A DNA stretch of 64,000 nucleotides, taken from contig JADHLI010000003.1 of the NCBI GenBank assembly GCA_016780775.1, forward strand, positions 1 to 64,000, in the 5' to 3' direction. Below the pieces are notes generated by a model. It searched no databases and was not told the DNA's origin. It worked only from the letters and a program-made list of their open reading frames with translations. This document shows positions 2,344-58,657 of this stretch, piece by piece; positions within the stretch are counted from its first letter, which is position 1; each line of letters starts with the position of its first letter. Source of the DNA: Alphaproteobacteria bacterium (GTDB lineage: Bacteria; Pseudomonadota; Alphaproteobacteria; Puniceispirillales; Puniceispirillaceae). The position numbers and the translations under genes are program-made.

Positions 2344-2581
2344 GGCAAATGCCCCTTTTTTTAAAAAACACTCCTGCATTTATAAGACAGGCTAGAGCCG
2401 CGCAGATCAAGTCTACAGATATGGGTAAAATTCCTCAGCAAGGTGTTTGACTCCCCGCAGGCAATTACAGAATATCAAGGTGGGCTGTGGTCTGGCAGGG
2501 ATTTTGCATTTAATGTCCCTGTTCTTACTTGTGGTTGTGCAGACCCGTGATGTGGTAGTATGGATGCGGCGCCTTAATTAT

Positions 2582-5500
2582 ATGAAAAAATTTAATAAAT
2601 CATACCTCTCTTTGGTGTTCTCTGGCCTGTTATTTACCGGGGTGATGGGGTTTGCCGGTTTGACTATCTTTGTAAACGCACCTGCTTTTGCACAAACCAA
2701 CACCGGCAGTGATGCAAACAACCCTCTGATTCCAGAAAAATTTGCGCAGCTGTTAAAGAAAGCAGAAAGCGGTGATGTAAGCGCCCAGAGCCGGATAGCG
2801 CTGATTTATTACAGCGGCATTGGGCTAGATGCAGATTATCAGGCGGCGCGTTACTGGTTTGAGGCTGCTGCAGAACAGGGTCATATCAACGCCCTTTATA
2901 TGCTGAGCCTGATACATCTAAACGGCCTTGGCGTCGAAGAAGATGCGCGCATTGCCGCAAATTATTTAAAACAAGCAAGCAATAAGGGCGATGCGCCTGC
3001 ACAAGCTTTACTTGCTGGCCTTTATGTTGAAGGGCGCGGCGTTGAACAAGATTACATCATGGCCAAAAGCCTATTTAGTAAAGCATCTGCCCAAGATGAT
3101 GCGAACGGACAATTTGGGCTAGGTACCCTGTATCATCAGGGCTTTGGTGTCCCCCAAGATTATGCTGAAGCGGTGCGCTATTATCAAAAGGCAGCTGCCA
3201 AAGGTCACAAAGATGCCCATTACAATATCGCTATGATGCTGGAAATTGGTGAAGGGGTTCAACAAAATACCGCAGAAGCGCGAAAATGGTATGAAGCTGC
3301 TGCAAATCTAGGTGACCCCCACGCTGCTTATCGGCTCGGTCTTCGTTTGCGTGATGAGCCAAAATTTGGTGCTAGCCAGAAAGATATTGCCAACTGGTTT
3401 CGCATTGCCGCAGAGGCTAGAATTCCTGCCGCCCAGCTTGCTTTGGCACATTATCTTGCCGACCCCGAAAATGTTGAGGTGTTCGATGAGGAAACTGCCT
3501 TTCGATATTATACTATGGCAGCCGAGGCAGGCAAGACAGAAGCCCAAATGAAGGTAGCACGCTGGTTAGATATGGGAAAAGCCGCTGGCAAAGACCATGT
3601 TAGTGCATTGCGTTACTATGAAATGGCCGCCCAAGCTGGTGTGCCAGAGGGCCAATATATATTTGGTTTGCGCCTGATGGCAGGCGAACATACCAAAAAG
3701 AACGCTTCCCTTGCCATCTTCTATTTTAAGGAAGCGGCCAGAGGCGGGTCGGTCGCTGCATTAGGCGAGCTTGGCAAAGCTTACTACCTCGCGGAGGGGG
3801 TAGATAAAGATATCCAGCGGGCTGCCGATCTACTCCGCCGTGCTGCTGCCGAAAAGGATAGCGAGGCAAATTATCATTTAGGCCTGTTATATGAAAGCGG
3901 CGAGATAGGCTTCATCGATTTAGATAAGGCTATCCAATTTTATCGCCAAGCTGATGCTATCGCCCGCCCAGACGCAAATCTCCGTCTTGGCAGATTATTA
4001 TTTATGCGGGGGCAGGAAAGCGATATCGCCGAGGCGCCAGATTTTATTCGAAAGGCTGCTGATGCAGGCATTGTGGATGCACAGTTTCAATATGCACGCC
4101 TACTAGATAAGGGTGAAAATGTATCAGCAGATGCTAATTTGGCAGCTGTCTATTATAAGCAGGCAGCAGAAGCGGGTATTTTGCAAGCCCAGCTTCGCTT
4201 GGCTGAATTATATAAAGGGGAACGCCGTGTTGCCATCGATCCAGAAGCAAGCTTTACATGGTATCTAGCTGCTGCTGAGCAGGGCGATGCCAGTGCAGCT
4301 TATGCAGTGGGAGATGCCTATCTAACTGGTAAGGGCGTTAAAGCAAACCGACAGCAAGCTGCTTTCTGGTTTGAAGCGGCTGCGTTGGCGGATTTTGAAG
4401 ATGCCGCTTGGCGTCTTGTTCAGCTGATGCGAAGCGATATAATCGCCGCGTCTGAAAACAACCCTGCTAAGAGCAATAGCGCCTATCCTGACTATCTGAA
4501 ATTAGCAGCAGATAAAAATAACCCTGAAGCTGCTTTGTTGTATGCACAGTTTATTTTGCAAAAAGGGGTAAGTGATGATGCCGCCCGTCAGGCCTCTGCC
4601 TATCTTGCAGATGCAATTGAGGCTGGCATTGCAGAGGCCATGTTCGAGATGGCCGTATTATTGAGCAATAAAAGCCTAGTAATGCATGCACCGAGGCGCA
4701 GCCTAGCGCTATATGAAGAGGCAGCAAGGGCAGGGTATCTTGATGCGCAATTACTACTAGGTGCTGTCTATAGTAACCGTGATACCGCCATTTATGACCC
4801 GCAGCGTGCCTTTGGTTTTTATAGCGCAGCGGCTAAACAAGACCATCCAGAAGCGTTATATCAGCGTGGCGATATGTTGTTAAATGGCCGCGGCACAGGG
4901 GCAAATTTTCCAGCTGCTGCCAAAGACTTGCTTCGTGCAGCAGAACAGGGCCATGCAGGCGCTCAATTTGCGATAGCTGGCCTTTATGAAGAAGGCAAAG
5001 GGGTGGAACGCTCGCTAGATAGCGCCCTTTATTGGCTGCAAGTCTCTGCAATGCAGGATTTTGCACAGAGCTTTTTTCATCTCGGCATAAATCTGCTGGC
5101 ACAGGCTGATAATGATAAAAAGATCGATACAGCTCTGTCATGGATTATAAAGGCTGCAGATAATAATGAGCAGCATGCCCAATATGCCTTGAGCCAGATT
5201 TATCTGAGAGGTAATGGGGTTATAGTGGACATCGAACGCGGCGAAAATTTACTCAAAGCTGCAGCCGACAATGGCCTTGCAGAGGCGCAATTTGGATATG
5301 CCCGCCGCGAAATTGAAAAAGGCAGTGATAGTTCGGTTGTAGCGCCATTTATGGTGGCGGCTGCTGAACAGGGGTTTGTAAGTGCCTTTTTGCAAGCTGC
5401 ACAGTTTTTGCGTGACGGTGAGGGTGTCGAAAATGACCTGAGCCGTGCCGCTTTTTTCTTTAAACAGGCCGCTGATAATGGAGACGCGCACGCACAGCTA

Positions 5501-6034
5501 GAGACTGCTCGTAATTTTGACAATGGCTTTGGTATGCCAAAGGACCGAGAGGAAGCTGTTCGCTATTACCAGCTAAGTGCCGCGCAGGGGCTAATTGAAG
5601 CAGAAATGAAACTTGCTGAGGCATTTAATCAAGGTGATGGAATAAAGGCAGATTTTAAACAGGCCTTTGTCTATTACATGCGGGCGGCAAAAAAGGGTAA
5701 TGTTGATGCTGCGTATAATTTAGGAATGATGTTACAAGCAGGCATTGGTACACAAGTTGACTTGCAATCAGCGGCAAATTGGTACGAAATAGCAGCAAAA
5801 AAAGGTCAATTAGAATCGCAAGTAAATTTGGGGCTATTATATGTTGGCGGAGAGAGCTTTTTGCAAGATTTTGAGCGTGCTCACATGTGGTTTAACATTG
5901 CAGCCGCAAATGGCCATAAAGACGCTAAGGACTTTAGAGACCGACTTAGCATTAAATTAACCAATCAAACGATAGCTTCTGCTCAGAAGAAGGCAAGAAT
6001 TTGTTTGGAGAGTAATTTTTCGAAATGTAACTGA
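2582..6034 (+). CDS. Secreted Sel1-repeat (SLR) protein with about 29 repeats
   Basis: About 1,150 residues. A signal peptide (MKKFNKS, a hydrophobic stretch, then APAFAQT) leads into an almost uninterrupted solenoid of Sel1-like repeats. I count about 29 units with the pattern YxxAAxxG, each followed by A..LG.LY..G.GV..D...A, about 36 residues apart. Sel1 repeats form alpha-helical superhelices that bind proteins; relatives act in the periplasm in exopolysaccharide regulation, host interaction and signalling. No catalytic domain is visible. The open frame extends back to 2447, but the leader-like start at 2582 fits secretion best; an ATG at 2564, adding MRRLNY, is a real alternative. The last repeats become more AT-rich, like the genes that follow. 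The repeat count is high for this family. Confidence 0.85.
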   Translation: MKKFNKSYLSLVFSGLLFTGVMGFAGLTIFVNAPAFAQTNTGSDANNPLIPEKFAQLLKKAESGDVSAQSRIALIYYSGIGLDADYQAARYWFEAAAEQGHINALYMLSLIHLNGLGVEEDARIAANYLKQASNKGDAPAQALLAGLYVEGRGVEQDYIMAKSLFSKASAQDDANGQFGLGTLYHQGFGVPQDYAEAVRYYQKAAAKGHKDAHYNIAMMLEIGEGVQQNTAEARKWYEAAANLGDPHAAYRLGLRLRDEPKFGASQKDIANWFRIAAEARIPAAQLALAHYLADPENVEVFDEETAFRYYTMAAEAGKTEAQMKVARWLDMGKAAGKDHVSALRYYEMAAQAGVPEGQYIFGLRLMAGEHTKKNASLAIFYFKEAARGGSVAALGELGKAYYLAEGVDKDIQRAADLLRRAAAEKDSEANYHLGLLYESGEIGFIDLDKAIQFYRQADAIARPDANLRLGRLLFMRGQESDIAEAPDFIRKAADAGIVDAQFQYARLLDKGENVSADANLAAVYYKQAAEAGILQAQLRLAELYKGERRVAIDPEASFTWYLAAAEQGDASAAYAVGDAYLTGKGVKANRQQAAFWFEAAALADFEDAAWRLVQLMRSDIIAASENNPAKSNSAYPDYLKLAADKNNPEAALLYAQFILQKGVSDDAARQASAYLADAIEAGIAEAMFEMAVLLSNKSLVMHAPRRSLALYEEAARAGYLDAQLLLGAVYSNRDTAIYDPQRAFGFYSAAAKQDHPEALYQRGDMLLNGRGTGANFPAAAKDLLRAAEQGHAGAQFAIAGLYEEGKGVERSLDSALYWLQVSAMQDFAQSFFHLGINLLAQADNDKKIDTALSWIIKAADNNEQHAQYALSQIYLRGNGVIVDIERGENLLKAAADNGLAEAQFGYARREIEKGSDSSVVAPFMVAAAEQGFVSAFLQAAQFLRDGEGVENDLSRAAFFFKQAADNGDAHAQLETARNFDNGFGMPKDREEAVRYYQLSAAQGLIEAEMKLAEAFNQGDGIKADFKQAFVYYMRAAKKGNVDAAYNLGMMLQAGIGTQVDLQSAANWYEIAAKKGQLESQVNLGLLYVGGESFLQDFERAHMWFNIAAANGHKDAKDFRDRLSIKLTNQTIASAQKKARICLESNFSKCN

Positions 6035-42052: not shown

Positions 42053-43021
42053 ATGATATCCACTAACCTTATTCAACAGACAGCTGAAACCTTGATGGAA
42101 AAGGCGGCCATTGAAATTCCGCAAGACTATCTAGAGGGGCTAAAGGGTGCAGCCTCTAAAGAGGATGGCGATCTATCTGCTTTTGTATTACAGGCGATGC
42201 TGGAGAATTATGAAGCGGCTAAAGAAGACAGACGGGCAATGTGTGGGGATACTGGCACGCCGCGTTGGTATGTAAAAATGGGTAATGAGGCAGCGATAGA
42301 GGGCGGGCCAGTAGCGATGGAAACGGCCCTTAGGCGTGCAACCGCGAATGCAACGCAAAATGTCCCGCTACGCCCAAACCGTGTGCACCCGCTTTGGCGC
42401 ACCGATCATAATAATAATGTTGGTATTGGCGCTCCGGAGATTGAATATGCGTTTGAGCCAGATGGGGACTGGATAGACCTGACAACTGTACATAAGGGCG
42501 GCTTGTTTGGCACAGACTACAGAATGTTGTTCCCATCTGACGGTATTGCGGGGATAAAGCGGTTTTACCTAGATAGTCTTGTTGCTTTTGGCAAGCGCGG
42601 CCTTGCCTGTCAGCCGGCAATCATCGGTATTGGTTTAGGCGGGACAAAAGATGCATGTATGGTTCTAGGCAAGCGAGCCGCCTGTTTGCGGGTAGTAGGG
42701 GACAAAAACCCAGATCCTAAAATAGCCGCGTTAGAAGCTGAATTTACTGAGCTTGGCAATAATATCGGCATGGGGGCAATGGGCTTTGTTGGCAGCTCTA
42801 TGGTGATCGATTGTAATATCGAAGTAGGCTATTGCCACACTGGCGGAATGCAGATGTCGGTGCATGCATTTTGTCTGTCATCTAGGCGAGCGGTAGCTCG
42901 TATTTATAGTGATGGCCATGTTGAATATCGCACAGACCCTAACTGGTTCACCCCTTATCAGCGCCGGGAAACCGTAGAATGGGAGGACAGCGCATGGCTG
43001 GAAAAAGCCCACGCAAATTAA
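42053..43021 (+). CDS. Class I fumarase / tartrate dehydratase alpha subunit
   Basis: 322 residues of the iron-sulfur hydro-lyase alpha subunit. Three cysteines in family positions would ligate the [4Fe-4S] cluster: MCGDTGTPRWYV, GTKDACMVLGK and EVGYCHTGGMQMS. Class I two-subunit enzymes hydrate fumarate, dehydrate tartrate, or act on mesaconate. Because it follows the SDH-like genes, a fumarate/malate role is likely. The ribosome site AAGGAAG lies 9 bases upstream. The beta gene starts inside its 3' end. Confidence 0.88.
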   Translation: MISTNLIQQTAETLMEKAAIEIPQDYLEGLKGAASKEDGDLSAFVLQAMLENYEAAKEDRRAMCGDTGTPRWYVKMGNEAAIEGGPVAMETALRRATANATQNVPLRPNRVHPLWRTDHNNNVGIGAPEIEYAFEPDGDWIDLTTVHKGGLFGTDYRMLFPSDGIAGIKRFYLDSLVAFGKRGLACQPAIIGIGLGGTKDACMVLGKRAACLRVVGDKNPDPKIAALEAEFTELGNNIGMGAMGFVGSSMVIDCNIEVGYCHTGGMQMSVHAFCLSSRRAVARIYSDGHVEYRTDPNWFTPYQRRETVEWEDSAWLEKAHAN

Positions 43022-43668
43022 GGTTAAGCACAAACCCCACCCACGAAGCGCTGTCCGAATTGCGGCTTGGCGATGTGGTGTATTTGGATGGCACACTCTA
43101 TACAGCACGTGAAGGCGTTTATATGCGCGCGTTAGAGGAAAAGGCCAATATACCTATGGAGCTACCTGCTAAGAGTGCGGCAAACTTTCACTGCTCTCCT
43201 GCGGCCAGCATTAATAGTGATGGTTCTTTTAACCTAGGTGCAGTCACCGCTACGGCTTCATTTCGATTTTCGAAATGGATTGGCGACTGGATGGCAGCTT
43301 CTGGCGCAAAGCTCATTATTGGCAAAGGCGGAATGAGCGCAGAAGACTATAAGCAGCATTTTGTGCCGAACGGCGCTGTCTATCTGACCACAGTTGGCTA
43401 TGGCACTGGCGCATTATTAGGGCGCGGGGTGAAAAAGGTGGTAGATGTGCATTGGCATGAAGAGCTTGGCCTAGCTCAGGCTATGTGGGTAATTGAAGTT
43501 GAGAATATGGGCCCGTTCATTGTGGAAAGCGACTTGAAAGGCAATAGCCTGTTTGAGCGAGAAAATGAGAAGATCGCGCGTAATCTTGAAGCCTTGTATG
43601 AAGGTACCAAGCCTGCGACATTGAAACGCTATGGCGAGACAGATGATCGTAAAGATGAGCTGATTTAA
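42994..43668 (+). CDS. Class I fumarase / tartrate dehydratase beta subunit
   Basis: About 224 residues. The swivel domain is seen in LRLGDVVYLDGTLYTAREGV and the C-terminal GYGTGALLGRGVKKVVDVHWHEELG. This subunit closes the active site over the alpha subunit. The ATG at 42994 has GGAGG 7 bases upstream, overlapping the alpha gene by 28 bases, so the two are translationally coupled. The frame extends to 42979, before that ribosome site. Confidence 0.88.
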   Translation: MAGKSPRKLRLSTNPTHEALSELRLGDVVYLDGTLYTAREGVYMRALEEKANIPMELPAKSAANFHCSPAASINSDGSFNLGAVTATASFRFSKWIGDWMAASGAKLIIGKGGMSAEDYKQHFVPNGAVYLTTVGYGTGALLGRGVKKVVDVHWHEELGLAQAMWVIEVENMGPFIVESDLKGNSLFERENEKIARNLEALYEGTKPATLKRYGETDDRKDELI

Positions 43669-43678
43669 GCCATATTTA

Positions 43679-44428
43679 TTATAGCCCCGTCAGGCTACGC
43701 AGAATAAGCATTAGGCCAGAGACAAACATCAAAATGATTAATAGCCGCCTAAACTGTTCATTATCCAGCCTTTTAAACAGCCAAATGCCAGTTTGTGCCG
43801 CAATAAGACCAGCTGGCATCACCACCGCCAAATGAACAAGGCTATTCAGGCTATAGGCGCCGTTAACAGCAACCATCAAAACTGACAAGCCGAGAACTGC
43901 AACATTATAGGGTTGCAGCACTGCGCGTGTTTCATTCTTACTGTAGGGCCGCATTGACAGCCAGACAGTGATGATAGCGCCAGATAGCCCAGCAGCCCCG
44001 CCCAAAACCCCGCCAATTAATCCAACCATCCTATCAATAACAGGCGCGCGCTTGCTTAAGACAGGTAAATTCGCGCGCAAGGCAAAAAACCCGCCATAAA
44101 ATAGCATGAACAAACCAATGAGCGTTTTCAGGATAGTGGTATCAATAAAGCTAAGACTATAGACGCCCAGCGGGATACCAAATAGCGCGGGCAATAAAAA
44201 GCGCAAAAGACGCTTTTGGTTATCGAAAATTTGTTGGCGTACAATCCATAACCCTTGCAAACCGCTAAAAACAGACAGCACTAACACTAATCCAACAGCC
44301 TCAAGGGGAGGTAATATCTGCAACAAAAACCCTAGCGCAAATAAAGCGGTGCCAAACCCTGCTAGGCCGTTTATGAAGCCGCCAGCGAGGCCTGCTAGCA
44401 GCAGATAGATAAGCATTTCGCCAGTCAT
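43679..44428 (-). CDS. TauE/SafE family membrane permease
   Basis: 249 residues with about eight hydrophobic segments. GGFINGLAGFGTALFALGFLL and GGVLGGAAGLSGAIITVWL are the two repeat signatures of the TauE/SafE (sulfite exporter) family. These proteins move small anions such as sulfite, sulfoacetate or organosulfonates; the substrate here is unknown. It starts immediately after the preceding 81-residue gene and converges on the fumarase gene. Confidence 0.85.
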   Translation of the reverse strand: MTGEMLIYLLLAGLAGGFINGLAGFGTALFALGFLLQILPPLEAVGLVLVLSVFSGLQGLWIVRQQIFDNQKRLLRFLLPALFGIPLGVYSLSFIDTTILKTLIGLFMLFYGGFFALRANLPVLSKRAPVIDRMVGLIGGVLGGAAGLSGAIITVWLSMRPYSKNETRAVLQPYNVAVLGLSVLMVAVNGAYSLNSLVHLAVVMPAGLIAAQTGIWLFKRLDNEQFRRLLIILMFVSGLMLILRSLTGL

Positions 44429-44674
44429 TTATTTCATTTCTACCAGCACACGCTTTTGATACATGCCCCATAAATCTGATAGCAGCTTTTCATCAAAACT
44501 TGCAAAAATAGCAGCCCCAGCAGGATCATCTGAGAAAACCAATCTCAATAATTCATTAAAGCCTGTCTGATCGCCGGGCGGATCTAGCTCATGGCGGGCG
44601 CGAAATTCGTCTGTTTTCGCAAATATCGCTTCGATCATATCACGCATTTGGTCAGGCGAGGGATTGCGGCTCAT
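44429..44674 (-). CDS. Small conserved-looking protein of unknown function
   Basis: 81 residues, not recognised. It is acidic and probably helical, with no signal peptide, no membrane segment and no cysteine. The stop codon abuts the TauE/SafE start without a gap, which argues for a true co-transcribed gene. It may be cytoplasmic and linked to the permease or to the DUF952 gene upstream. Confidence 0.6.
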   Translation of the reverse strand: MSRNPSPDQMRDMIEAIFAKTDEFRARHELDPPGDQTGFNELLRLVFSDDPAGAAIFASFDEKLLSDLWGMYQKRVLVEMK

Positions 44675-44695
44675 TTTATTCTCACTTTATTCGAA

Positions 44696-45040
44696 TTAGT
44701 TTTGGCGTAACGGGGGCAGGATATGAATTTTGTCCTCATCAAGGGCAAGCGGCCATACAGCACTAACCGCAGATAAAGGCAGGCTATCATAAAGATGCGG
44801 GAATAGCTGGCCACCTCTAGATGTCTCCCATCTGATATCTAAAGTACTTGCATCTACCTCAATCAGCAACAAATCTGTCTGACTTGTAAAATGCAAGCTG
44901 AGTGTCCGCGCAACTTGCTGGTCCGTGGAGAAGTGAATATAACCATCTGTTAAATCAATTTCTGCGCCATTGAAAACGCCTGTTTTTTCTGCTTCTTCCC
45001 ATAAAGGGCGGGCACAAATTTTATAGATAAAGCGCTGCAT
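44696..45040 (-). CDS. DUF952 family protein
   Basis: About 114 residues. The family is recognised from IYKICARPLWEEA, DGYIHFSTDQQVARTL and RGGQLFPHLYDSLPLSAV. The function is unknown; the fold is compact with a conserved IHFS motif. The ATG at 45040 is preferred; the frame reaches a TTG at 45049. It heads a short minus-strand group with the 81-residue and TauE genes. Confidence 0.8.
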   Translation of the reverse strand: MQRFIYKICARPLWEEAEKTGVFNGAEIDLTDGYIHFSTDQQVARTLSLHFTSQTDLLLIEVDASTLDIRWETSRGGQLFPHLYDSLPLSAVSAVWPLALDEDKIHILPPLRQN

Positions 45041-45193
45041 CTTATCCAAGCTTTCCCAAACCTAATACTTTCTGTTTCATAACAGTCGAGAAGAGCAGGG
45101 GCAATGCTGTCTGTGCGCATTGACTATTTCCCTTAAAATACCAGTTAAAACGATAAGACAGGAACATCTAAAAACCAGCTTAGGGGCTAAAAT

Positions 45194-45565
45194 GTGACGA
45201 CTGTTTATTTTGACGGCAAATGCGGGCTATGCTCGAAAGAAATCAGCTATTATCAAAAAATAGCCCCTAAAGGCGTTTTTGAATGGCAGGATATCGCCCA
45301 TGATGCTTCTGCGCTTAAGCCCCTCAATATATCGCAAGCAGATGCGCTTAGGCTCTTGCATGCAAAAGATAAAAAGGGGGAGATGCATATCGGCGTCGAT
45401 GCCTTTATCCTGATCTGGAACGAATTGTCTATTGGCTGGCGGTTTTTGTCTGTATTGGCTGGCCTGCCTATAATTCGGCCTATTTTAGGCTGGGTCTATC
45501 GCCGATTTGCCAGCTATCGTTTTGCCCGACTGGAGCATTGCCAGATAGCTGCCAAAGGTTCATGA
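45194..45565 (+). CDS. DCC-motif (DUF393) thiol-oxidoreductase-like protein
   Basis: 123 residues. It starts MTTVYFDGKCGLCSKEISYYQ with the DxxCxxC motif that defines the DCC family, a thioredoxin-like group. The C-terminal half (GLPIIRPILGWVYRRFASYRFAR) is typical as well. The start is a GTG behind AGGGG. It stands alone on the plus strand, with a 29-codon open frame 45 bases downstream. Confidence 0.85.
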   Translation: MTTVYFDGKCGLCSKEISYYQKIAPKGVFEWQDIAHDASALKPLNISQADALRLLHAKDKKGEMHIGVDAFILIWNELSIGWRFLSVLAGLPIIRPILGWVYRRFASYRFARLEHCQIAAKGS

Positions 45566-45610
45566 TGGGCGTGGATATAACCATGCAAAATTTTTAAAAG
45601 GTGAACGCAG

Positions 45611-45700
45611 ATGAACCTTGAGCCGCTCATTTATCTGATTATCGGAATTGGCTGTATTTTTATTTATCGTTTGATGAAGAAAAGATGGTCTGGAAAATAG
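45611..45700 (+). CDS. Putative 29-residue single-pass membrane peptide
   Basis: A short frame, MNLEPLIYLIIGIGCIFIYR followed by LMKKRWSGK and a TAG stop. One hydrophobic helix is followed by a positively charged tail, the positive-inside layout of small membrane proteins. AAGGTG lies 7 bases before the ATG. It follows the DCC gene on the same strand. The function is unknown; the ribosome site and composition make it a reasonable candidate, not a certain gene. Confidence 0.45.
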   Translation: MNLEPLIYLIIGIGCIFIYRLMKKRWSGK

Positions 45701-45727
45701 CTGCCAGCAGGATTGTTTAAGGCCGTC

Positions 45728-46699
45728 CTAGCGCTGATATAGCCAGTCATCTATCAGACGGCGTGATATGGAAAGCTGGCGCGGTAGAAACTTGCCTTGT
45801 GCCTCAAAGTTCAACAGCTCATCTCTGGTAAACCATTGGGCATCCTCGATCTCATCATGGTTGATCTGTAATTCAGTGCTCAGCGCTTTTGCATGTAAGC
45901 CTAGCATGAGTGACGAAGGGAAAGGCCATGGCTGGGAATGCTGATAGCGGATATCGCCAACCTGAACGCCAACTTCCTCATACACTTCTCGTGCAGTTGC
46001 ATGTTCTATTGTCTCGCCTGGCTCAACAAACCCTGCAAGCGTAGAATACATACCCTCTGGCCAGATAGCTTGCCTGCCTAGTAATACCCGCTCCCCATCA
46101 CGTACTAGCATAATTACGGCTGGGTCTGTACGCGGAAAATGCATTTCCCCGCAGCTAGCAGAGCCACATTTCCTTTGATGCCCTAATTTTTGTACAATCG
46201 TTTTTTGTCCACATCGTCCACAATAAATATGCCGATAATGCCAATAGAGCATCGCGCGTGCATAGGCCATAACAGAGCCATCGCGCCCATCTATCATGGG
46301 GCCTATTTCGCGTAATTCGGCAAAGTAGCTTTGTTGGGAAAACTGGCTGGCTAACCGCTCTTCTGGCAGGTCAGATACATCTAATGCAAATAGATAGCGT
46401 GCCTCGGCAGCATCAGCGCGCTTGCCAAGATAAATAAGCTGGCGATGCGGGGCAACCAGCCCTGCTGCCTCTGTTGCCGCCAAAAATATAGGCTCAGGCT
46501 TGCCATGCTGTTCTGCCTCGCCAGCAAATAGGCCGCGATATTGCCAATGCGGGGTTATCAGGGCACTAGCCACATTTCCATGCAGAAATTCATGTGGGTT
46601 ATGATGGGCATCACGCGTTAGCGCATCTCGGTCAAGTCCACCAAAACCTAAATGATTAGGGACATATTCAGTTAAACGGTAAGCATCAAAATCAGTCAT
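45728..46699 (-). CDS. nudC: NAD+ diphosphatase NudC (Nudix, zinc-ribbon)
   Basis: 323 residues. The zinc ribbon is CGRCGQKT...CGSASCGE, followed by FPRTDPAVIMLV. The Nudix box is GFVEPGETIEHATAREVYEE, continuing into VGV, and the NADH pyrophosphatase tail SQPWPFPSSLMLG identifies the NudC branch. It hydrolyses NAD(H) or removes NAD caps from RNA. It is a separate unit from the purine genes because a strong terminator precedes it. Confidence 0.93.
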   Translation of the reverse strand: MTDFDAYRLTEYVPNHLGFGGLDRDALTRDAHHNPHEFLHGNVASALITPHWQYRGLFAGEAEQHGKPEPIFLAATEAAGLVAPHRQLIYLGKRADAAEARYLFALDVSDLPEERLASQFSQQSYFAELREIGPMIDGRDGSVMAYARAMLYWHYRHIYCGRCGQKTIVQKLGHQRKCGSASCGEMHFPRTDPAVIMLVRDGERVLLGRQAIWPEGMYSTLAGFVEPGETIEHATAREVYEEVGVQVGDIRYQHSQPWPFPSSLMLGLHAKALSTELQINHDEIEDAQWFTRDELLNFEAQGKFLPRQLSISRRLIDDWLYQR

Positions 46700-46765
46700 A
46701 ATCTAGCTACTTTAGAAATAAATAATGATGCATGCAATGGAAATAGCCAGAGCTATGTATAAGGG

Positions 46766-46803
46766 TAGAAAAATACAGGCGCAAAAGGTAGTGGCTGCGC
46801 CTG
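46766..46803 (-). terminator. Rho-independent terminator after the NCS2 permease
   Basis: Arms CAGGCGCA (46776-46783) and TGCGCCTG (46796-46803) form a perfect 8-base GC-rich stem around a 12-base loop. On the minus strand it is followed by TATTTTT. It lies 15 bases after the permease stop and separates the urate operon from nudC. Confidence 0.8.
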
Positions 46804-46817
46804 CATCTCCTTTAATT

Positions 46818-48095
46818 TTAGTCAATTTCCTCTGGCAGCATTAGGTTTAAAACCACGGCCAATACAGCAATAGGTAATAAACCAGAGACCATCAATCTTT
46901 CAAGACTATCTGGCAGATGTTGCATAGATTGCGGCACTGCCTGAAGGCCAAGTCCAACAGAGAGCGAAATGGCCATGATAATCATGTTTCGGCGATTCCA
47001 ATTCACATCTGAAAGCATATTGATACCAGCCGATACCACCATGCCAAACATCAAAATGACGCCCCCACCAAGTACCGAGATAGGCATTGCTGCTACAACC
47101 GCACCAATCTTTGGAATAAGTCCGCAAGCAATAAGGAACAAGCCAGCAATCGTTACTACTCCGCGGCTCATCACCCCGGTCATGGAGATCAGGCCAACAT
47201 TCTGGCTAAATGAGGTGTTCGGCAGACCACCAAAAACGCCTGCAACTGCACTGCCTAGACCATCTGCATAGGTGCCGCCTGACAGCTCTTTGTCCTTTGC
47301 TTCACGCCCGCTGCCCCCTTTGGTAATTGCCGAGATATCGCCAACTGTTTCAATTGCACTGATGATAGAGATAAGACACATGCTAACAATGGCAAAGGCT
47401 TGAAATTCAATACCATATTTGAACGGCTCTGGTAGGGCAAACCACGCCGCGTTGCTAACAGCATCAAAATTAACCGCACCTGTGAAAATGCCAGCTACAT
47501 AACCAGCAACCAGACCCAGCAAAATAGCTGCAGAATTAGGCAAGCCCTTGGAATAAAACTTAAAGCCAAGCGCAACAATGATCACCAAAATAGCGAGGCC
47601 CCAGCGGCTGAAATCACCCCAAGCTGGATTTTCCATCTGGAAGCTTGCGGCGCCACCTGCAGCGTATTTTATTCCCACTGGCAACAGATAAAGACCAATT
47701 GCCATAATGATCATGCCGGTAACAAGTGGCGGGAACCAATGGCGTATTTTGCCAATAATACTGCCAAGTAGGGCATGGAAGATACCCGCTACGACAACGG
47801 CACCAAATAGCGCGGCAACCCCGCTTGTTTTCACGATAGTTATCATAATTGGCACGAAGGCAAAGCTGGTACCCTGCATCACTGGCAGACGCGCACCCAC
47901 AGGCCCAAAGCCAATAGTTTGCATTAAAGTTGCTATACCGGCAAAAAGCATTGCCATCTGGATTAAAAAGACAGTGTCGGTTCCGCCAAAGGCAAATCCG
48001 GCAGCGCCTGCGATTATGATGGAAGGTGTTACGTTACTAGCAAACATAGCTAGAACATGTTGCATACCAAGTGCAATGCGAGGCCCCATTGGCAC
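46818..48095 (-). CDS. NCS2 family purine (urate/xanthine) permease, leader interrupted by a stop codon
   Basis: About 425 residues from the GTG at 48095. QHVLAMFASNVTPSIIIAG, QTIGFGPVGARLPVMQGTSF with its substrate-contact QG, and the late SAIETVGDISAITKGG and GGLPNTSFSQNVGLISMTGV are core motifs of the nucleobase:cation symporter-2 family. About 14 hydrophobic segments are present. Its position next to urate-degrading genes points to urate or xanthine import. The better upstream start (ATG at 48152, behind AAGGGGGA) is followed in frame by 13 codons, a TAG, then codons joining this frame. If the TAG is real, translation must start at the GTG 48095 or the ATG 48089, where GAGG gives a modest ribosome site. 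Confidence 0.85.
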   Translation of the reverse strand: MPMGPRIALGMQHVLAMFASNVTPSIIIAGAAGFAFGGTDTVFLIQMAMLFAGIATLMQTIGFGPVGARLPVMQGTSFAFVPIMITIVKTSGVAALFGAVVVAGIFHALLGSIIGKIRHWFPPLVTGMIIMAIGLYLLPVGIKYAAGGAASFQMENPAWGDFSRWGLAILVIIVALGFKFYSKGLPNSAAILLGLVAGYVAGIFTGAVNFDAVSNAAWFALPEPFKYGIEFQAFAIVSMCLISIISAIETVGDISAITKGGSGREAKDKELSGGTYADGLGSAVAGVFGGLPNTSFSQNVGLISMTGVMSRGVVTIAGLFLIACGLIPKIGAVVAAMPISVLGGGVILMFGMVVSAGINMLSDVNWNRRNMIIMAISLSVGLGLQAVPQSMQHLPDSLERLMVSGLLPIAVLAVVLNLMLPEEID

Positions 48096-48152
48096 CTCAT
48101 AGTTTGGATACTACAATTGTGCTGCAGTCCCCAGATCTTTATCATTAGTCAT
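48096..48152 (-). other. In-frame leader of the NCS2 permease containing an amber codon
   Basis: From ATG 48152 the frame reads MTNDKDLGTAAQL, then TAG (48111-48113), then YPNYE directly into the annotated permease frame. The ATG has a strong ribosome site and lies 48 bases after the allA stop, exactly where an operon partner should start. NCS2 proteins normally have an N-terminal tail of this length before the first helix. So the TAG looks like a nonsense change in an otherwise intact gene. Confidence 0.75.
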
Positions 48153-48199
48153 AATTTTCCCCCTTATTACTAATGTTAAAATTATCTGGTTTGTATTCC

Positions 48200-48682
48200 C
48201 TACTTTTCTATAACCATATCCTCATCAAACCAGAACTCTTCAAGGTTCTTGTCATTGCCAATTCTATCGACAACAGCAAAAAGCCCCGGAGCCTCTAATG
48301 GCGTTAAAACGCCATGCCAAATATTACAGTGGTAATTCACCCCAACTGATGGCGGGGTAATGAAAGCCTGCACATTGCTAGGCTGGCCATTATCATCTTC
48401 TGCAACCACGACTAAAAAGGGATGTTCGTGAAGCGGCAAGAAGGCTTGCGAGCCAAGTGGATGTCGCTCCATCATCTCCAGCCGATAGGGCAGCGCTCGT
48501 GGCTCGGCATCAAATAGGCTGATACCAGCCCTCCCATCACCAACAAAATCTAGCTTTGCCAAATTGTGATAGCGTGCGCATTTCCCTTGATTAATCATTT
48601 TGTCAGGCATTTGACGCGCACAAATAACATCACCAAACTGGGCAAAAATCTGGGCATCAAAAGGTTTTGCTTGCAGTCTCAT
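48200..48682 (-). CDS. allA: Ureidoglycolate lyase AllA
   Basis: 160 residues. FAQFGDVI near the start, FLPLHEHPFLVVVA, AFITPPSVGVNYHCNIWHG and FAVVDRIG are the conserved AllA cupin-type motifs. It splits ureidoglycolate into glyoxylate and urea, the last step of allantoin breakdown. The start ATG is separated from the allE stop by 8 bases, and the purine permease follows. Confidence 0.92.
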   Translation of the reverse strand: MRLQAKPFDAQIFAQFGDVICARQMPDKMINQGKCARYHNLAKLDFVGDGRAGISLFDAEPRALPYRLEMMERHPLGSQAFLPLHEHPFLVVVAEDDNGQPSNVQAFITPPSVGVNYHCNIWHGVLTPLEAPGLFAVVDRIGNDKNLEEFWFDEDMVIEK

Positions 48683-48690
48683 ATCTTTTA

Positions 48691-49527
48691 TTACCTCAAA
48701 CCCAAGGGGGTGAGGGGCATATGCCGGTTCACATCTTTATATAACAAATAGCGGAAAGGTTCTGTGCCAGCGGCATAGCAAGCTTGCGGACAAAAAGCAC
48801 GCAGCCACATATAATCCCCTTCCGATACCTCTATCCAGCGCCCATTTAAATAATAAACACCCTTGCCTTGCAACACATAAAGCCCATGTTCCATCACATG
48901 CGTTTCCGCAAAAGGGATGCAGCCACCCGGCTGAAAAGTGACAATATTGACATGCATGTCGTGGCGCAAATCATCTGGCGCAACAAAGCGTGTGGTAGCC
49001 CAAATACCATCTGTATCTGGCATTTCTATTGCTGGTGTATCGCTATCTGTGGTTACAAACGCATCTGGGGCATCAACACCTTCTACCACTTGATAACGCT
49101 TTCGTATCCAGTGAAAATGACAGGGGCTGCTCGCGCTATTCTCTAATCGCCAATTAAGGCCAGCAGGAAGATAGACATAGCTACCGCTGCGCAAGTCTGC
49201 CTCGCTATCGCCATAATATAATTTAGCTTGTCCACCGACCACAAATAGAACCGATTGTGCAGATAAGTCGTCCTCTGGCTTTTGGCTGCCACCGCCCGCG
49301 CCAACTTCCATCAAATAGTGCGAAAAGGTTTCCGCAAAGCCGGTCATAGGACGGGCGAGCACCCATAGGCGCGTTGCCTGCCAATGGGGCAAAAAGCTGG
49401 TCACAATATCTGTTTGAACGTCGCTTGGCATAAAAGCAAAGCTGTCTGTGAATATAGCCCTGTCGGCTAATCTCTCAGATTGTGGCGGCAGGCCTCCTTG
49501 AGGCACATGATAATTTGTATAGGACAC
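48691..49527 (-). CDS. allE: (S)-ureidoglycine aminohydrolase AllE (bicupin)
   Basis: 278 residues with two cupin halves. The ligand-binding half has ETHVMEHGLYVLQGKGVYYL and GDYMWLRAFCPQACYAAG, the manganese-site region of the UGlyAH family. AllE converts ureidoglycine, made from allantoate, into ureidoglycolate. Its presence implies that an allantoate amidohydrolase (AllC) exists elsewhere, since none is in the window. It lies between the allantoinase fusion and allA. Confidence 0.92.
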   Translation of the reverse strand: MSYTNYHVPQGGLPPQSERLADRAIFTDSFAFMPSDVQTDIVTSFLPHWQATRLWVLARPMTGFAETFSHYLMEVGAGGGSQKPEDDLSAQSVLFVVGGQAKLYYGDSEADLRSGSYVYLPAGLNWRLENSASSPCHFHWIRKRYQVVEGVDAPDAFVTTDSDTPAIEMPDTDGIWATTRFVAPDDLRHDMHVNIVTFQPGGCIPFAETHVMEHGLYVLQGKGVYYLNGRWIEVSEGDYMWLRAFCPQACYAAGTEPFRYLLYKDVNRHMPLTPLGLR

Positions 49528-49577
49528 CTATTTACAAAGACTCCGTCTGTTTTTTACAAAATCTCGTTCCGCTCCAG

Positions 49578-50999
49578 CTAAAGCTTATCACGTAAACGCA
49601 AAATAGCAATCTTTTGAACTTGGTTGCAGGCTTCGGCAAACTCTGCATCTGGATTATGTTCTAGTCTTGTCTGGAAGGCGTGTAGAATTTCCTGCTTATT
49701 CAGGCCTTTGACCGCGATAATAAAGGGATGGCCAAATTTTTCTATATAGGCAGTATTTAAATCTGTGAATTTTGCAATTTCTTGGGCATTGAGATTGTCA
49801 AGGCCAGCAGAAGCTTGCTCTTGAGTGCTACTCTTGGTTAGTTTTCCCTGCTGGGCAAGCTTTCCAGCTAGGTCAGGATGGGCGCGCAATACAGCGAGCT
49901 GTTTCTCATAACCAGCTGCCCGAAATGCGCGGCAAAGGGCGCTATGCACCCCCTCGGCACTGTCATGAGCGGGGCCTAGCTCAAGGGCAAAGGCATCCTC
50001 AGCAACCCATGCAGAATCTTCAAAAATACCCCCGAAAGCTGTTATAAACTCCTGCCTATTCATGGCACTAGGGCGGTTTGCATGGGCCTTAGCATCAAAT
50101 GGGTGGGCTTTTTGCCAATGACGTGCAATATCCAGACGCCGCGTAACCCACACCTTTTCATGCGATTGCACATAGTCAAGGAAGCGGCGCAAAGCCTGAA
50201 TACGCCCTGGCCGCCCAACCAAGCGGCAATGCAAGCCCACAGTAAGCATTTTTGGCGCACCTGCCATGCCTTCTGAATAAAGCGCATCAAAGCTATCTTT
50301 TAAATAGCTATAGAACTGGTCGCCTGAATTAAAGCCTTGCGGGGCGGCAAAGCGCATATCATTAGCATCTAGCGTGTAGGGAATTATCAGTTGAGGCTTG
50401 TTATCTTCTACATGCCAATAGGGCAGGTCGTCCGCATAGCTATCTGATATATACTCAAAACCGCCTATCTGGCTTATCAGCGAGACGGTATTTACCGAAC
50501 AGCGTCCTGTATACCAGCCGCGTGGTTTCTCGCCCGTTACTTGATAGTGAAGCTCTATCGCAGCCTCAATATGTGCGCGTTCCTCTTCAATAGAAAAATC
50601 CTTATATTCAATCCATTTATAGCCATGGCTGGCAATTTCCCAACCTGCTTGCTGCATGGCCAGAACCTGATCAGGATTACGCGCCAGCGCAGTTGCAACC
50701 CCATAGATAGTTAACGGAATATCCGCATCTAAAAACAAATCATGCAACCGCCAAAATCCAGCTCTAGCGCCATATTCATAGATAGATTCCATATTCCAAT
50801 GACGCTGGTTATCCCACGGCTGGGCACCAACAATTTCAGACAGAAAAGCTTCGGAATGTGTATCGCCATGGAGCAGGCAATTCTCGCCGCCTTCTTCGTA
50901 ATTCAACACAAACTGCACCGCGATATGCGCGCCATTTGGCCAGCTTGGATGCGGCGGCCGGCCTCTATAGCCTGCCATATCACGGATATATCGTGTCAT
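49578..50999 (-). CDS. PuuE allantoinase fused to OHCU decarboxylase
   Basis: 473 residues, two domains. Residues 1-305 form a polysaccharide-deacetylase-fold allantoinase of the PuuE type: HIAVQFVLNYEEGGEN, GVATALARNPDQVLAM, EIASHGYKWIEY and RGWYTGRCSVNT. After a short linker, residues about 315-473 are 2-oxo-4-hydroxy-4-carboxy-5-ureidoimidazoline decarboxylase: FEDSAWVAEDAF, LRAHPDLAGKLA with the catalytic histidine and FGHPFIIAVKG. The fusion thus carries the last step to S-allantoin and its ring opening. The ATG at 50999 has AGAGGG 5 bases upstream; the longer start at 51047 has none. First gene of a minus-strand operon, divergent from the HIU hydrolase. Confidence 0.93.
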   Translation of the reverse strand: MTRYIRDMAGYRGRPPHPSWPNGAHIAVQFVLNYEEGGENCLLHGDTHSEAFLSEIVGAQPWDNQRHWNMESIYEYGARAGFWRLHDLFLDADIPLTIYGVATALARNPDQVLAMQQAGWEIASHGYKWIEYKDFSIEEERAHIEAAIELHYQVTGEKPRGWYTGRCSVNTVSLISQIGGFEYISDSYADDLPYWHVEDNKPQLIIPYTLDANDMRFAAPQGFNSGDQFYSYLKDSFDALYSEGMAGAPKMLTVGLHCRLVGRPGRIQALRRFLDYVQSHEKVWVTRRLDIARHWQKAHPFDAKAHANRPSAMNRQEFITAFGGIFEDSAWVAEDAFALELGPAHDSAEGVHSALCRAFRAAGYEKQLAVLRAHPDLAGKLAQQGKLTKSSTQEQASAGLDNLNAQEIAKFTDLNTAYIEKFGHPFIIAVKGLNKQEILHAFQTRLEHNPDAEFAEACNQVQKIAILRLRDKL

Positions 51000-51160
51000 A
51001 TTGCCCTCTTGATAGCGTGTTTGTAAAAGTGGGAACGCTGTGTCCATTTCAAAGTATCTCTAAAAACAGGATTGATCTCAAATATAAAATCAGTGAGATT
51101 TACAAATGGACGCTTTTGAACCTGCGCCCGATTTTATGCTTTAAGGGGGAAAAGCTAAAA

Positions 51161-51517
51161 ATGGCTAAAGGCTTTTTAACAACGCATGTTCTGGATACTG
51201 CTAGAGGCTGTCCAGCTGCTGGCCTCACTATCCGCTTATTCAGCGTGGATGGCCAGCAACTTACCGAAATCGCTGCGATGATCACCAATGAAGATGGCCG
51301 AACCGATGGCCCAATATTGCCAGCTGATAATTTCAGAACGGGTGGATATCAGTTAGCTTTTGCAGCTGGGGACTATTTGCGCCGACAAGGGCATGATGAT
51401 GATATTTTGTTTCTGGATGAGGTTATTGTGCGCTTTGGCATCAATAATGCGGATCAGCATTATCATGTGCCATTACTGCTATCACCTTATGGCTATTCGA
51501 CCTATAGAGGTAGCTAG
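51161..51517 (+). CDS. 5-hydroxyisourate hydrolase (transthyretin-like)
   Basis: 118 residues. The transthyretin-like ends of the HIUase family are intact: FLTTHVLDTARGCPA at the N-terminus (catalytic His), a central NEDGRTDGP and the C-terminal signature YHVPLLLSPYGYSTYRGS. It hydrolyses the product of urate oxidation to OHCU. The ORF is open much further upstream, but AAGGGGGA before the ATG at 51161 fixes the start. The stop codon touches the PuuD start. Confidence 0.94.
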   Translation: MAKGFLTTHVLDTARGCPAAGLTIRLFSVDGQQLTEIAAMITNEDGRTDGPILPADNFRTGGYQLAFAAGDYLRRQGHDDDILFLDEVIVRFGINNADQHYHVPLLLSPYGYSTYRGS

Positions 51518-52774
51518 ATGGATGTAGGGCTTCTTACAACTTTCCTGACAAGTTGGGCAGAATTTGCGGTGCGCTGGCTACATGTGATAACCGCAATTGC
51601 ATGGATTGGTTCTTCTTTTTATTTTATCGCGCTGGATTTGGGCTTGCGTAAACATGACCAATTGCCTGCGGGTGCTGCTGGTGATGAATGGCAAGTGCAT
51701 GGTGGTGGGTTTTATCATATCCAGAAATATTTAATCGCGCCTGCACATCTGCCAGAACATCTGACGTGGTTTAAGTGGGAATCTTATGCAACGTGGCTGT
51801 CTGGTTTTGCGCTGTTGGCGATAGTCTATTATGGCAGTGCTGATTTATATCTAATCGATGCTGAAAAGCTAGAACTTACAACTCTTGCGGCGATAGCATT
51901 ATCCATAGGCTCGCTTGTTCTGGTTTGGGGTATTTACAGCCTGTTATGCCGCTCCTCTCTAGGCCAGAACGCTACGTTGCTTATGGTGATATTATATCTG
52001 TTTTTAGTCGCCCTTTCATGGGGATTTCACCAGATTTTCACAGGCCGTGCTGCGTTTATCCATCTTGGCGCGGTAACCGCAACTATTATGTCTGCTAATG
52101 TGTTTATGGTGATTATCCCAAACCAGAAAATTGTGGTTGCAGATTTAAAAGCTGGACGCACGCCAGATGCAAAATATGGCCAGATTGCAAAGCAACGATC
52201 TACCCATAATAACTATCTGACTTTGCCTGTGATATTCCTGATGCTATCGAACCATTACCCGCTAGCCTTTGCGACCGAATATAGCTGGATTATCGCGAGT
52301 TTAGTGTTTTTGATGGGTGTAACAATACGCCATTATTTCAATACGCGTCATGCCCGCAAAGGTAACCCGCGCTGGACATGGGCGGCAACTGCACTCATCT
52401 TCCTTGTGATTATGGCCTTATCGCTTGCGCCGCTGATGCATAGAGATGATTTAGCAGAGACACAAACGCGCGCAAACGTTATGACGCTTAGCCCAGAGTT
52501 GCAAAAAAGGGCAAATCACCCCCTATTTGAAGAGGTGGGATATATTGTTGAAGGGCGCTGTAGTATGTGTCACGCAGCAGAGCCTTTATGGGAGGGGATA
52601 ATCGTTGCGCCAAAGAACCTGCATTTGGAGACGAGCGCAGATATTCTAACCCAAGCAGAGGCAATCTATCTGCATTCAGCCATATCCCATGCTATGCCGC
52701 CTGCAAATATCACCTATATGGAAGAAGGGGAGCGCGCACTAATTCGGCGCTGGTATCACGGGCAAAAAAAATAG
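51518..52774 (+). CDS. puuD: Membrane urate hydroxylase PuuD with C-terminal cytochrome c
   Basis: 418 residues. About eight membrane helices begin with RWLHVITAIAWIGSSFYFIALDLGL and contain SFYF-, WESYATWLSG- and HFN-type regions of the PuuD family. The last 70 residues are a periplasmic c-type domain with one heme motif, CSMCH (348-352), and a distal methionine in HAMPPANITYM. PuuD oxidises urate and passes electrons to the respiratory chain, so this organism does not need a soluble urate oxidase. The gene begins directly at the HIUase stop, forming a two-gene plus-strand unit. Confidence 0.94.
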   Translation: MDVGLLTTFLTSWAEFAVRWLHVITAIAWIGSSFYFIALDLGLRKHDQLPAGAAGDEWQVHGGGFYHIQKYLIAPAHLPEHLTWFKWESYATWLSGFALLAIVYYGSADLYLIDAEKLELTTLAAIALSIGSLVLVWGIYSLLCRSSLGQNATLLMVILYLFLVALSWGFHQIFTGRAAFIHLGAVTATIMSANVFMVIIPNQKIVVADLKAGRTPDAKYGQIAKQRSTHNNYLTLPVIFLMLSNHYPLAFATEYSWIIASLVFLMGVTIRHYFNTRHARKGNPRWTWAATALIFLVIMALSLAPLMHRDDLAETQTRANVMTLSPELQKRANHPLFEEVGYIVEGRCSMCHAAEPLWEGIIVAPKNLHLETSADILTQAEAIYLHSAISHAMPPANITYMEEGERALIRRWYHGQKK

Positions 52775-52822
52775 GTAAAGACCAAAATAAGCGCAAAATT
52801 AGCAGCAGGCTTTTTTGCATGT

Positions 52823-52870
52823 ATTAAATCAGGCTGGTATTAAATTAGGCTGATATTAAATAAAGCTGGG
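52823..52870. repeat. Three imperfect 16-bp direct repeats before the hydrolase gene
   Basis: ATTAAATCAGGCTGGT, ATTAAATTAGGCTGAT and ATTAAATAAAGCTGGG follow one another without a gap. They lie 33 bases upstream of the hydrolase start. The repeat could be regulatory or simply slipped sequence. Confidence 0.7.
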
Positions 52871-52902
52871 CGACAGATTAGAAGAAGGTGTATGTGGCGT
52901 GA

Positions 52903-53790
52903 ATGGATAATATATCAAAACCAGCAGATTATATTTCAAATAATAGTGGTTTTTGCTTTGCAGATACACCTATTACCGATTTTGATACTGCCTATGATAA
53001 CGCTCTGGCAGTACCAACAACTGCAAGCTATATCAGCGCTTGGGAAGAAAAGGCACCGGCATTTCGGGCTAGGTGGCCAAGCAGTCAGCTTGATTTGGCT
53101 TATGGGATGGGCACGCGAAATCGCTATGATATGTTTCTGCCTGACCAGACGCCAAAAGGCACTCTTGTTTTTATTCATGGCGGCTATTGGCGCCGATTTG
53201 ATAAATCATACTTCTCCCATCTAGCTAGGGGTGCGCTGGAACAAGGCTGGCAGGTCGCTATCCCCAGCTATACGCTAGCTCCTGATGTCCGCATTACCGA
53301 TATTGTAGCAGAGATGGCCGCAGCCATTAATCATATCTGCAAGGCTGGAGAAGGGCCCATTGCGCTGGCTGGACATTCAGCAGGGGGGCATCTGGTGAGC
53401 CGTCTTGCCTGCGCAGATACCGCCTTGTCAGCTGAAGTTCAGGCGCGCTTGTGCCATGTTACGTCTATTAGCGGGGTGCATGATTTGCGTCCAATCCTCA
53501 AACTGGAGATTAACGCAGATATTCGTCTAGACCCTGAAGAAGCCCTTGCGCAAAGCCCGGCTCTGTTAGAACCGCTGGCAGATCTAGCGTTCTCTTGTAT
53601 TGTGGGTGCCGACGAATTACCTGAGTTCGTGCGCCAAAGCGGCGTTCTGGCAAATATCTGGTCAGGCTTTGGTATAGATACGGGTAGCTGGCAGGTTAAA
53701 GGCCGACATCATTTTGATATTATTGATGACTTGCAGAAAGGGAATGCAGCCCTTACGCTTCATATATTGGGGATAGAGACGCTGTCCTAA
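52903..53790 (+). CDS. Alpha/beta hydrolase, kynurenine formamidase (AFMID)-like
   Basis: 295 residues. The oxyanion-hole motif FIHGGYWRRFDKSYFS and nucleophile LAGHSAGGHLVSRL are typical of the AFMID-like esterases, with a possible catalytic Asp near GADELPEF and His in GRHHFDIIDDL. It may hydrolyse N-formylkynurenine or another formamide or ester. The ORF has no clear ribosome site, so the start at 52903 is provisional. It stands between the urate operon and the aldolase gene. Confidence 0.78.
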   Translation: MDNISKPADYISNNSGFCFADTPITDFDTAYDNALAVPTTASYISAWEEKAPAFRARWPSSQLDLAYGMGTRNRYDMFLPDQTPKGTLVFIHGGYWRRFDKSYFSHLARGALEQGWQVAIPSYTLAPDVRITDIVAEMAAAINHICKAGEGPIALAGHSAGGHLVSRLACADTALSAEVQARLCHVTSISGVHDLRPILKLEINADIRLDPEEALAQSPALLEPLADLAFSCIVGADELPEFVRQSGVLANIWSGFGIDTGSWQVKGRHHFDIIDDLQKGNAALTLHILGIETLS

Positions 53791-57247: not shown

Positions 57248-58657
57248 TTAACGTCCACCTGTCAGAATAAAAAATACCATAGACAAGGTTACTAATGCCA
57301 GTGCTGAAAAAGAAGTGTTCCAGCCAACACTGAGCTTCAAGGGGCGCGCCCCGCTAAGATTGGACACCATCAACACCACCGTAGCAAACGGAGAGGTAGT
57401 CATAGATAGTGCCCAGCCAGATGAAATAGATAAAGCTGCAAGTGTGGGGTCTACAGGCAGGACAGGCAGAGCCCCCAAAATACTGCCAAAAAATACTGCC
57501 ATCATTATCGGACTTACCCCTAGATAAGAGACAGGCACCATGATAAAGGCCATCATCGTCAAGAACAGATAATCAGGCATCGCATAGCGCTCAATGAGGC
57601 TCGCTACAAAATCTATTGGCACCATTTCTGCACTTAAGCGGCCAATATAACCAGAGGCAGAAAGCGCAAATATAATCCGTCCATTATGCGGTAACTCACG
57701 GTGGCAAATATGGATAGCTTGGCGCGCTGCGGCACTAAAGCGTGCGCTGCCTTGATGCCAGTGTTGGGCAGTCAACCAGCCAAGCATAATCACAGGGCAC
57801 GCCACCAACAGACCAAACACAATTGTATCATCTGCCCAAACAGAAACAGCTATGGTGATTGTGAACAGGGCAAATAGAACAAACAGGAAGCGCAAAATCG
57901 CTGCCTTTGGAAAGGCAGGTTGATTGCGTGCTGAGGCCGGGTTGCGCTGTATTTTGCGAAACCGCCATATATCTTCTAGCCAGCCAACACATAAAATCGC
58001 AGCGGTGCAGATAAGCCCATAGGCTGTCCATAGCTCGCGGCTGATCCCGTCTATTAATTCCATTACCGCAAGAGGCGCCATCGCAGTTGGCGACCAAACC
58101 ACCCCCCATGAGAAGCCACGTAACAAGGCTGTGAGTTGTCTGCGTTCTCGCAAAGCAGCAATAGCTGGCTCTGTTGCTTCATCCCTGACCCCTTTTTTTA
58201 TAAGCGGGGTTAACAGCGAGACGATGCCAAGATTGAACAAAACCGCCATGAGGTTAGTGCCGCTGAAAATGGCTAAATAGCGCTGTTTAGGCGGCTGTTT
58301 TGTTAGGTAATGCCCGCATTCACTTATTGTGGGTGACGTCATAGCGGCCTCATGCAGCAAGGCCAATAACAATAAAAACGCCATCAGGAAACTGGCTTGG
58401 GCAAAGGCTGCTTCATAGACTTCCAAGGGCATATCAAAGATGAAAAAGGCAAGCCCGCTCAATACGGCACAAACCCCAAGAAGATAAATTTCACGAAAAG
58501 CGATTAGCCGCCAACATAGGAAATATAACATGCCAGCCGCAAAATAGGAGGCAAGCTCAAAGCCCCTGATATCGGTTGCCCGTGCCAGTAAAGTCATCGC
58601 CATCAATAAGACCATAAAGGCCCCTGTGGCACTATGTGTTCGTATTTCTGTGCTCAC
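57248..58657 (-). CDS. Multi-pass permease of the ion-transporter type, unassigned
   Basis: 469 residues with about eleven to twelve hydrophobic segments. The late LSISSGWALSMTTSPFATVVL and the matched LFNLGIVSLLTPLIKKGV earlier resemble the repeated hairpin helices of the ion-transporter superfamily, which includes DASS and ArsB-type carriers, but I do not recognise the family. It starts at a GTG with a poor ribosome site, 30 bases upstream of the dehydratase gene, so it probably brings in the sugar acid used by these enzymes. That role is inferred from position only. Confidence 0.6.
   Translation of the reverse strand: MSTEIRTHSATGAFMVLLMAMTLLARATDIRGFELASYFAAGMLYFLCWRLIAFREIYLLGVCAVLSGLAFFIFDMPLEVYEAAFAQASFLMAFLLLLALLHEAAMTSPTISECGHYLTKQPPKQRYLAIFSGTNLMAVLFNLGIVSLLTPLIKKGVRDEATEPAIAALRERRQLTALLRGFSWGVVWSPTAMAPLAVMELIDGISRELWTAYGLICTAAILCVGWLEDIWRFRKIQRNPASARNQPAFPKAAILRFLFVLFALFTITIAVSVWADDTIVFGLLVACPVIMLGWLTAQHWHQGSARFSAAARQAIHICHRELPHNGRIIFALSASGYIGRLSAEMVPIDFVASLIERYAMPDYLFLTMMAFIMVPVSYLGVSPIMMAVFFGSILGALPVLPVDPTLAALSISSGWALSMTTSPFATVVLMVSNLSGARPLKLSVGWNTSFSALALVTLSMVFFILTGGR

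Follow-up and report, generated by a model that had tools for sequence, protein, structure and literature searches.

Translational restart after an early nonsense mutation is known in bacteria, the classic case being the early amber mutants of lacI, which were tested genetically. The NCS2 permease gene described here shares with these mutants an early stop, an in-frame start codon with an SD-like site shortly downstream and a complete core domain, but it is a natural allele of an uncultured lineage that is known from sequence, whereas the lacI cases were approached by genetics. It also resembles early nonsense pseudogenes, as it carries a single, lineage-specific stop in a gene that is deleted or broken in relatives, while it differs from them in having no further inactivating change and a plausible restart site. 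Compared with the NCS2/NAT permeases UraA (3QE7/5XLS) and UapA (5I6C), the complete core is shared and the fold is predicted to be the same, as modelled on the 90% identical homologue of a relative from the same genus, G001 (Z 42.3 to 5i6c and 42.0 to 5xls over nearly the whole length), whereas the N-terminal tail is cut off by a TAG codon. In fungal UapA, a motif in the N-tail is required for ER exit, and this motif is absent from prokaryotic NATs (PMC6597760).

The window, i.e., the whole stretch of 64,000 nucleotides that was analysed, comes from a marine host of the SAR116 group (Puniceispirillales); the relatives that public records name are SAR116 cluster bacteria and Candidatus Puniceispirillum. 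The permease gene lies downstream of a urate-degradation operon encoding a PuuE/OHCU decarboxylase fusion, an ureidoglycine aminohydrolase and an ureidoglycolate lyase (allA), and its original start codon follows the end of allA by 47 nt (Table 1). The remaining urate pathway genes are all open frames. The permease passes the curated cut-offs of both TIGR03173 pbuX (451.2 bits, cut-off 414.15) and TIGR00801 ncs2 (348.8 bits, cut-off 291.8), and the host genome has no other NCS2 match. Xanthine or urate is suggested as its substrate by the operon context with urate degradation genes, which is the basis of this assignment. The ribosome site, the ATG at 48152, the 13 codons, the TAG and the open NCS2 frame reported in a preliminary description of this DNA are all in place, as are the two restart codons that it named, GTG 48095 and ATG 48089; after the TAG the sequence continues as YPNYEVPMGPRIALGMQHVLAMF..., and the frame stays open down to a TAA at 46818.

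Table 1. Features of the interrupted permease leader and of the adjoining operon genes in the window.
Feature	Coordinates	Strand	Remarks
Ribosome site AAGGGGGA of the original permease start	48158..48165	-	Predicted pairing -11.0 kcal/mol; kept in G001 and G002
Original permease start ATG	48150..48152	-	Matched by an aligned ATG in G001 and in nearly all homologues
13-codon leader MTNDKDLGTAAQL	48114..48152	-	Remnant of the permease N-terminal tail; homologous to the leaders of G001 and G002
In-frame TAG	48111..48113	-	Sense codon (R, K, S, A, Q, others) in 101/101 homologue rows
Untranslated rest of the tail, YPNYE	48096..48110	-	First codon Tyr where 98 of 101 homologues have D/N
GAGGTG, putative ribosome site for ATG 48089	48093..48098	-	In the window only, among 99 loci
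Likeliest restart codon ATG	48087..48089	-	Lies 21 nt past the TAG; equivalent to residue 22 of the modelled G001 homologue, where helix 1 begins
NCS2 xanthine/urate-type permease core	46818..48095	-	Open frame, 425 codons; TIGR03173 and TIGR00801 matches
Ureidoglycolate lyase gene allA	48200..48682	-	Upstream of the permease in the operon; own stop is TAG
(S)-ureidoglycine aminohydrolase gene	48691..49527	-	Same urate-degradation operon
Fused allantoinase PuuE / OHCU decarboxylase gene	49578..51047	-	Same operon; own stop is TAG

An in-frame start upstream of the permease core was present in 97 of 100 distinct homologous loci, the exceptions being the window and the loci L009 and L024, indicating that the leader belongs to the permease. 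In G001 (L002/L031), the closest relative still carrying the gene, the same ribosome site and ATG precede the leader MANDNKLGSAKQL, which has Gln at the column of the TAG and Asp directly after it. Since the leader, ribosome site and start codon of the window are homologous to this intact leader, the TAG interrupts what was formerly coding sequence. The comparison with close relatives that the preliminary description had proposed thus bore it out: the leader is conserved, and the TAG column holds a sense codon in all 101 aligned rows (R in 44, K in 24, S in 11, A in 10, Q in 7, and others). Gln or Lys had been guessed as the original codon, and the nearest relatives have Gln. The column after the TAG is D or N in 98 of the 101 rows and Tyr in the window, and the core is immediately preceded by a motif, [DN]-P-[DN]-Y, that hardly varies (P in 96 rows of 101, Y in 87). 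This conservation, together with the ribosome site, ATG and leader kept in G001, places the pattern beyond chance. That all homologues start at the position of GTG 48095, with nothing conserved upstream, was rejected because 97 of the 100 loci have an in-frame start codon further upstream and [DN]P[DN]Y is conserved before this codon. A conserved upstream ORF or leader peptide was likewise rejected, the leader being continuous with the permease in relatives. The main relevance of the finding is for annotation, as an automatic caller would put the start at GTG 48095 or ATG 48089 and thereby hide the stop. A second leader nonsense case was seen in L024, which belongs to a genome of another family (G040); around position 1441 of this locus, codons 1 and 2 read ATG TGA behind a good ribosome site, and the permease body is intact.

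The probable nearest relative of the host is the species represented by G002, because the gene at 57248-58657 of the window is 93% identical in G002 and 79% identical in G001. G002 has the operon genes in the same order and the permease body is absent, owing to a clean deletion of ~1.3 kb that removed the equivalent of window positions 46750-48074; positions 48075-53414 and 42623-46749 of the window align to adjacent G002 stretches that lie 20 bases apart. What is left at this locus (L203, contig C10, near 4119-4260) is the ribosome site and the ATG, followed by some 20 decayed codons of the leader that now run into downstream sequence, and this leftover leader contains no TAG and reads Gln-Asp in place of the TAG-Tyr of the window. 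As both G001 and G002 have Gln-Asp, the TAG and the Asp-to-Tyr change arose in, and are specific to, the lineage of the window or its assembly. Divergence from G002 varies along the operon: over window positions 48691-51047, which hold the aminohydrolase and PuuE/decarboxylase genes, L203 is almost the same (dS 0.04-0.06), in contrast to a dS of about 0.65 for allA and, across the permease from it, the nudix gene; this difference marks a recent exchange tract between the two species. It was also observed that the gene matching window positions 51518-52774 has a second copy in G002, on contig C63 (18702-19929), besides that on C10.

The alternative that the TAG is a consensus error or a minority strain variant, so that the true population would have a sense codon and a normal leader, is in our opinion unlikely. 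It draws on a single assembly representing the species, on two unusual changes falling within four bases (TAG TAT) that are absent from both G001 and the G002 remnant, and on the finding of no second copy of the allele in the collections searched, where the search of the genus gave no further copy from the same species and the search of viral contigs gave nothing. However, the assembly is 99.56% complete with 0.7% contamination in 44 contigs, the TAG lies far from the contig end, the other operon genes are open, and the extra substitutions in the permease body described below point to a real relaxation. Substitution errors are also rarer than indels in modern assemblies, which weighs against an error at this site. 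The TAG is most likely a real, recent nonsense mutation, and it is of an ordinary type.

A further option of the preliminary description, amber readthrough, by which the TAG would be decoded and a full-length permease made, found no support and strikes us as highly improbable, although the frame after the TAG does run into a still recognisable tail sequence. Release factor 1 (RF1) is present in the host (515.9 bits, above the cut-off), and 12 of the 51 ORFs of the 64-kb window on which stop-codon usage was assessed end in TAG, including those of the ureidoglycolate lyase and PuuE of the same operon. No tRNA with a CUA anticodon was found among 29 tRNAs detected by covariance model and ARAGORN, a list that lacks some tRNA species, and in a pattern search for the anticodon arm of a CUA tRNA the sole tRNA matched was Arg(TCT). 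Moreover, the TAG is conserved in no relative and the residue following it has changed non-conservatively. In this host TAG is a normal stop, and the finding involves neither a change of the genetic code nor a new recoding device.

Of the options that had been listed for this stop, the one with the best support is a genuine nonsense mutation with possible rescue by restart; the stop interrupts sequence that is coding in relatives. Our preferred explanation, which we hold tentatively, is that the recent mutation in the N-terminal tail is accompanied by reinitiation at ATG 48089, by which transport is kept. Ribosomes beginning at ATG 48152 would reach the TAG after 13 residues and terminate there, and a part of them would then restart at ATG 48089, 21 nt downstream, by means of the intervening GAGGTG. 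The restart product would lack the 21-residue tail and keep all transmembrane helices, and the shortened permease may retain transport, perhaps at a lower level. After termination, bacterial ribosomes are reported to reinitiate at start codons that follow an SD-like sequence, with a reach of over 40 nt (PMC5972666); in the window, an in-frame start codon with an SD-like site lies within about 40 nt of the stop. We infer both that restart occurs and that the shortened protein works.

The two restart codons that had been proposed fared differently. The predicted pairing with the 16S tail is -6.9 kcal/mol for ATG 48089, a stronger value than the -6.4 kcal/mol that marks the 5% point among random window sites, whereas GTG 48095 is far poorer at +0.7 kcal/mol; the original start reaches -11.0 kcal/mol. 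An ATG occupies the restart column in 20 of 99 loci, but GAGGTG precedes it in the window alone, and the next best site among these loci has -3.3 kcal/mol. As modelled by AlphaFold, the G001 homologue has its helix 1 starting at residue 22, which matches the restart Met; the pbuX profile match begins at residue 9 of the protein when counted from GTG 48095. Counting against restart, the lost tail holds [DN]P[DN]Y, which hardly varies among homologues. Residues 11-20 of the G001 homologue were modelled with a mean pLDDT of 85; the lost tail is hence no clearly disordered stretch and may be important for the permease. One synonymous difference from G001 is what makes the internal ribosome site stronger, and it could have arisen by chance (1 in 20). 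That the permease has adapted to the nonsense mutation, the synonymous change having created GAGGTG such that termination and reinitiation behind a 13-codon leader peptide throttle purine uptake at the level of translation, seems very improbable to us.

Compared with restart at ATG 48089, it is nearly as likely, and thus a real possibility, that the gene is an early pseudogene, i.e., that the permease has been silenced by the nonsense mutation, yields little or no useful protein and is heading for loss. The permease body is gone and the leader decayed in G002, the probable closest species, and in a sister genus the gene is damaged: the G033 copy (L155) carries an internal TGA and has lost its leader, and that of G028 (L154) is heavily broken. 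One SAR116 transporter gene is thereby caught at several stages of loss across genomes, from intact (G001) through leader nonsense (the window), early pseudogene (G033) and heavily broken copy (G028) to clean deletion (G002). Silencing is further favoured by the D-to-Y change directly after the TAG, at a column that is otherwise D or N, and by changes in the body of the window permease at near-invariant columns, which number 12 compared with 1 in G001. In contrast, the 425 codons of the body contain no further stop or frameshift, its dN/dS to G001 is 0.04, which indicates strong overall constraint, and the site at ATG 48089 is a good one for restart. At 0.05-0.1 substitutions per site, neutral drift should have left 1-3 stops in the body, where a second stop was not found. 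Since allA and the nudix gene differ from those of G002 by a dS of about 0.65, neutrality of the permease could only be very recent. The preliminary description had called the permease otherwise intact, which held in so far as there is no second stop, but needs qualifying in view of the excess of substitutions at conserved sites and the deletion of the gene in a close relative.

For this comparison of conserved sites, columns were counted as conserved when invariant in nine near relatives, and the Asp-to-Tyr change is additional to the 12 changes in the body. In the control genes, the changes in the window and in G001 were balanced and numbered 1:4 (allA), 4:5 (puuE) and 4:5 (the gene at 57248), and the 12:1 of the permease differed from the pooled 9:14 of the controls (Fisher p 0.004). 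As the genes were compared with different outgroup sets and recombination has made the operon a mosaic, this excess is no more than suggestive of relaxed constraint at conserved sites of the permease body. The gene at window positions 2447-6034 was dropped as a control because it is repeat-rich and multi-copy; it encodes a repeat-type protein of 1195 aa, with partial matches in relatives that number up to 43 per genome.
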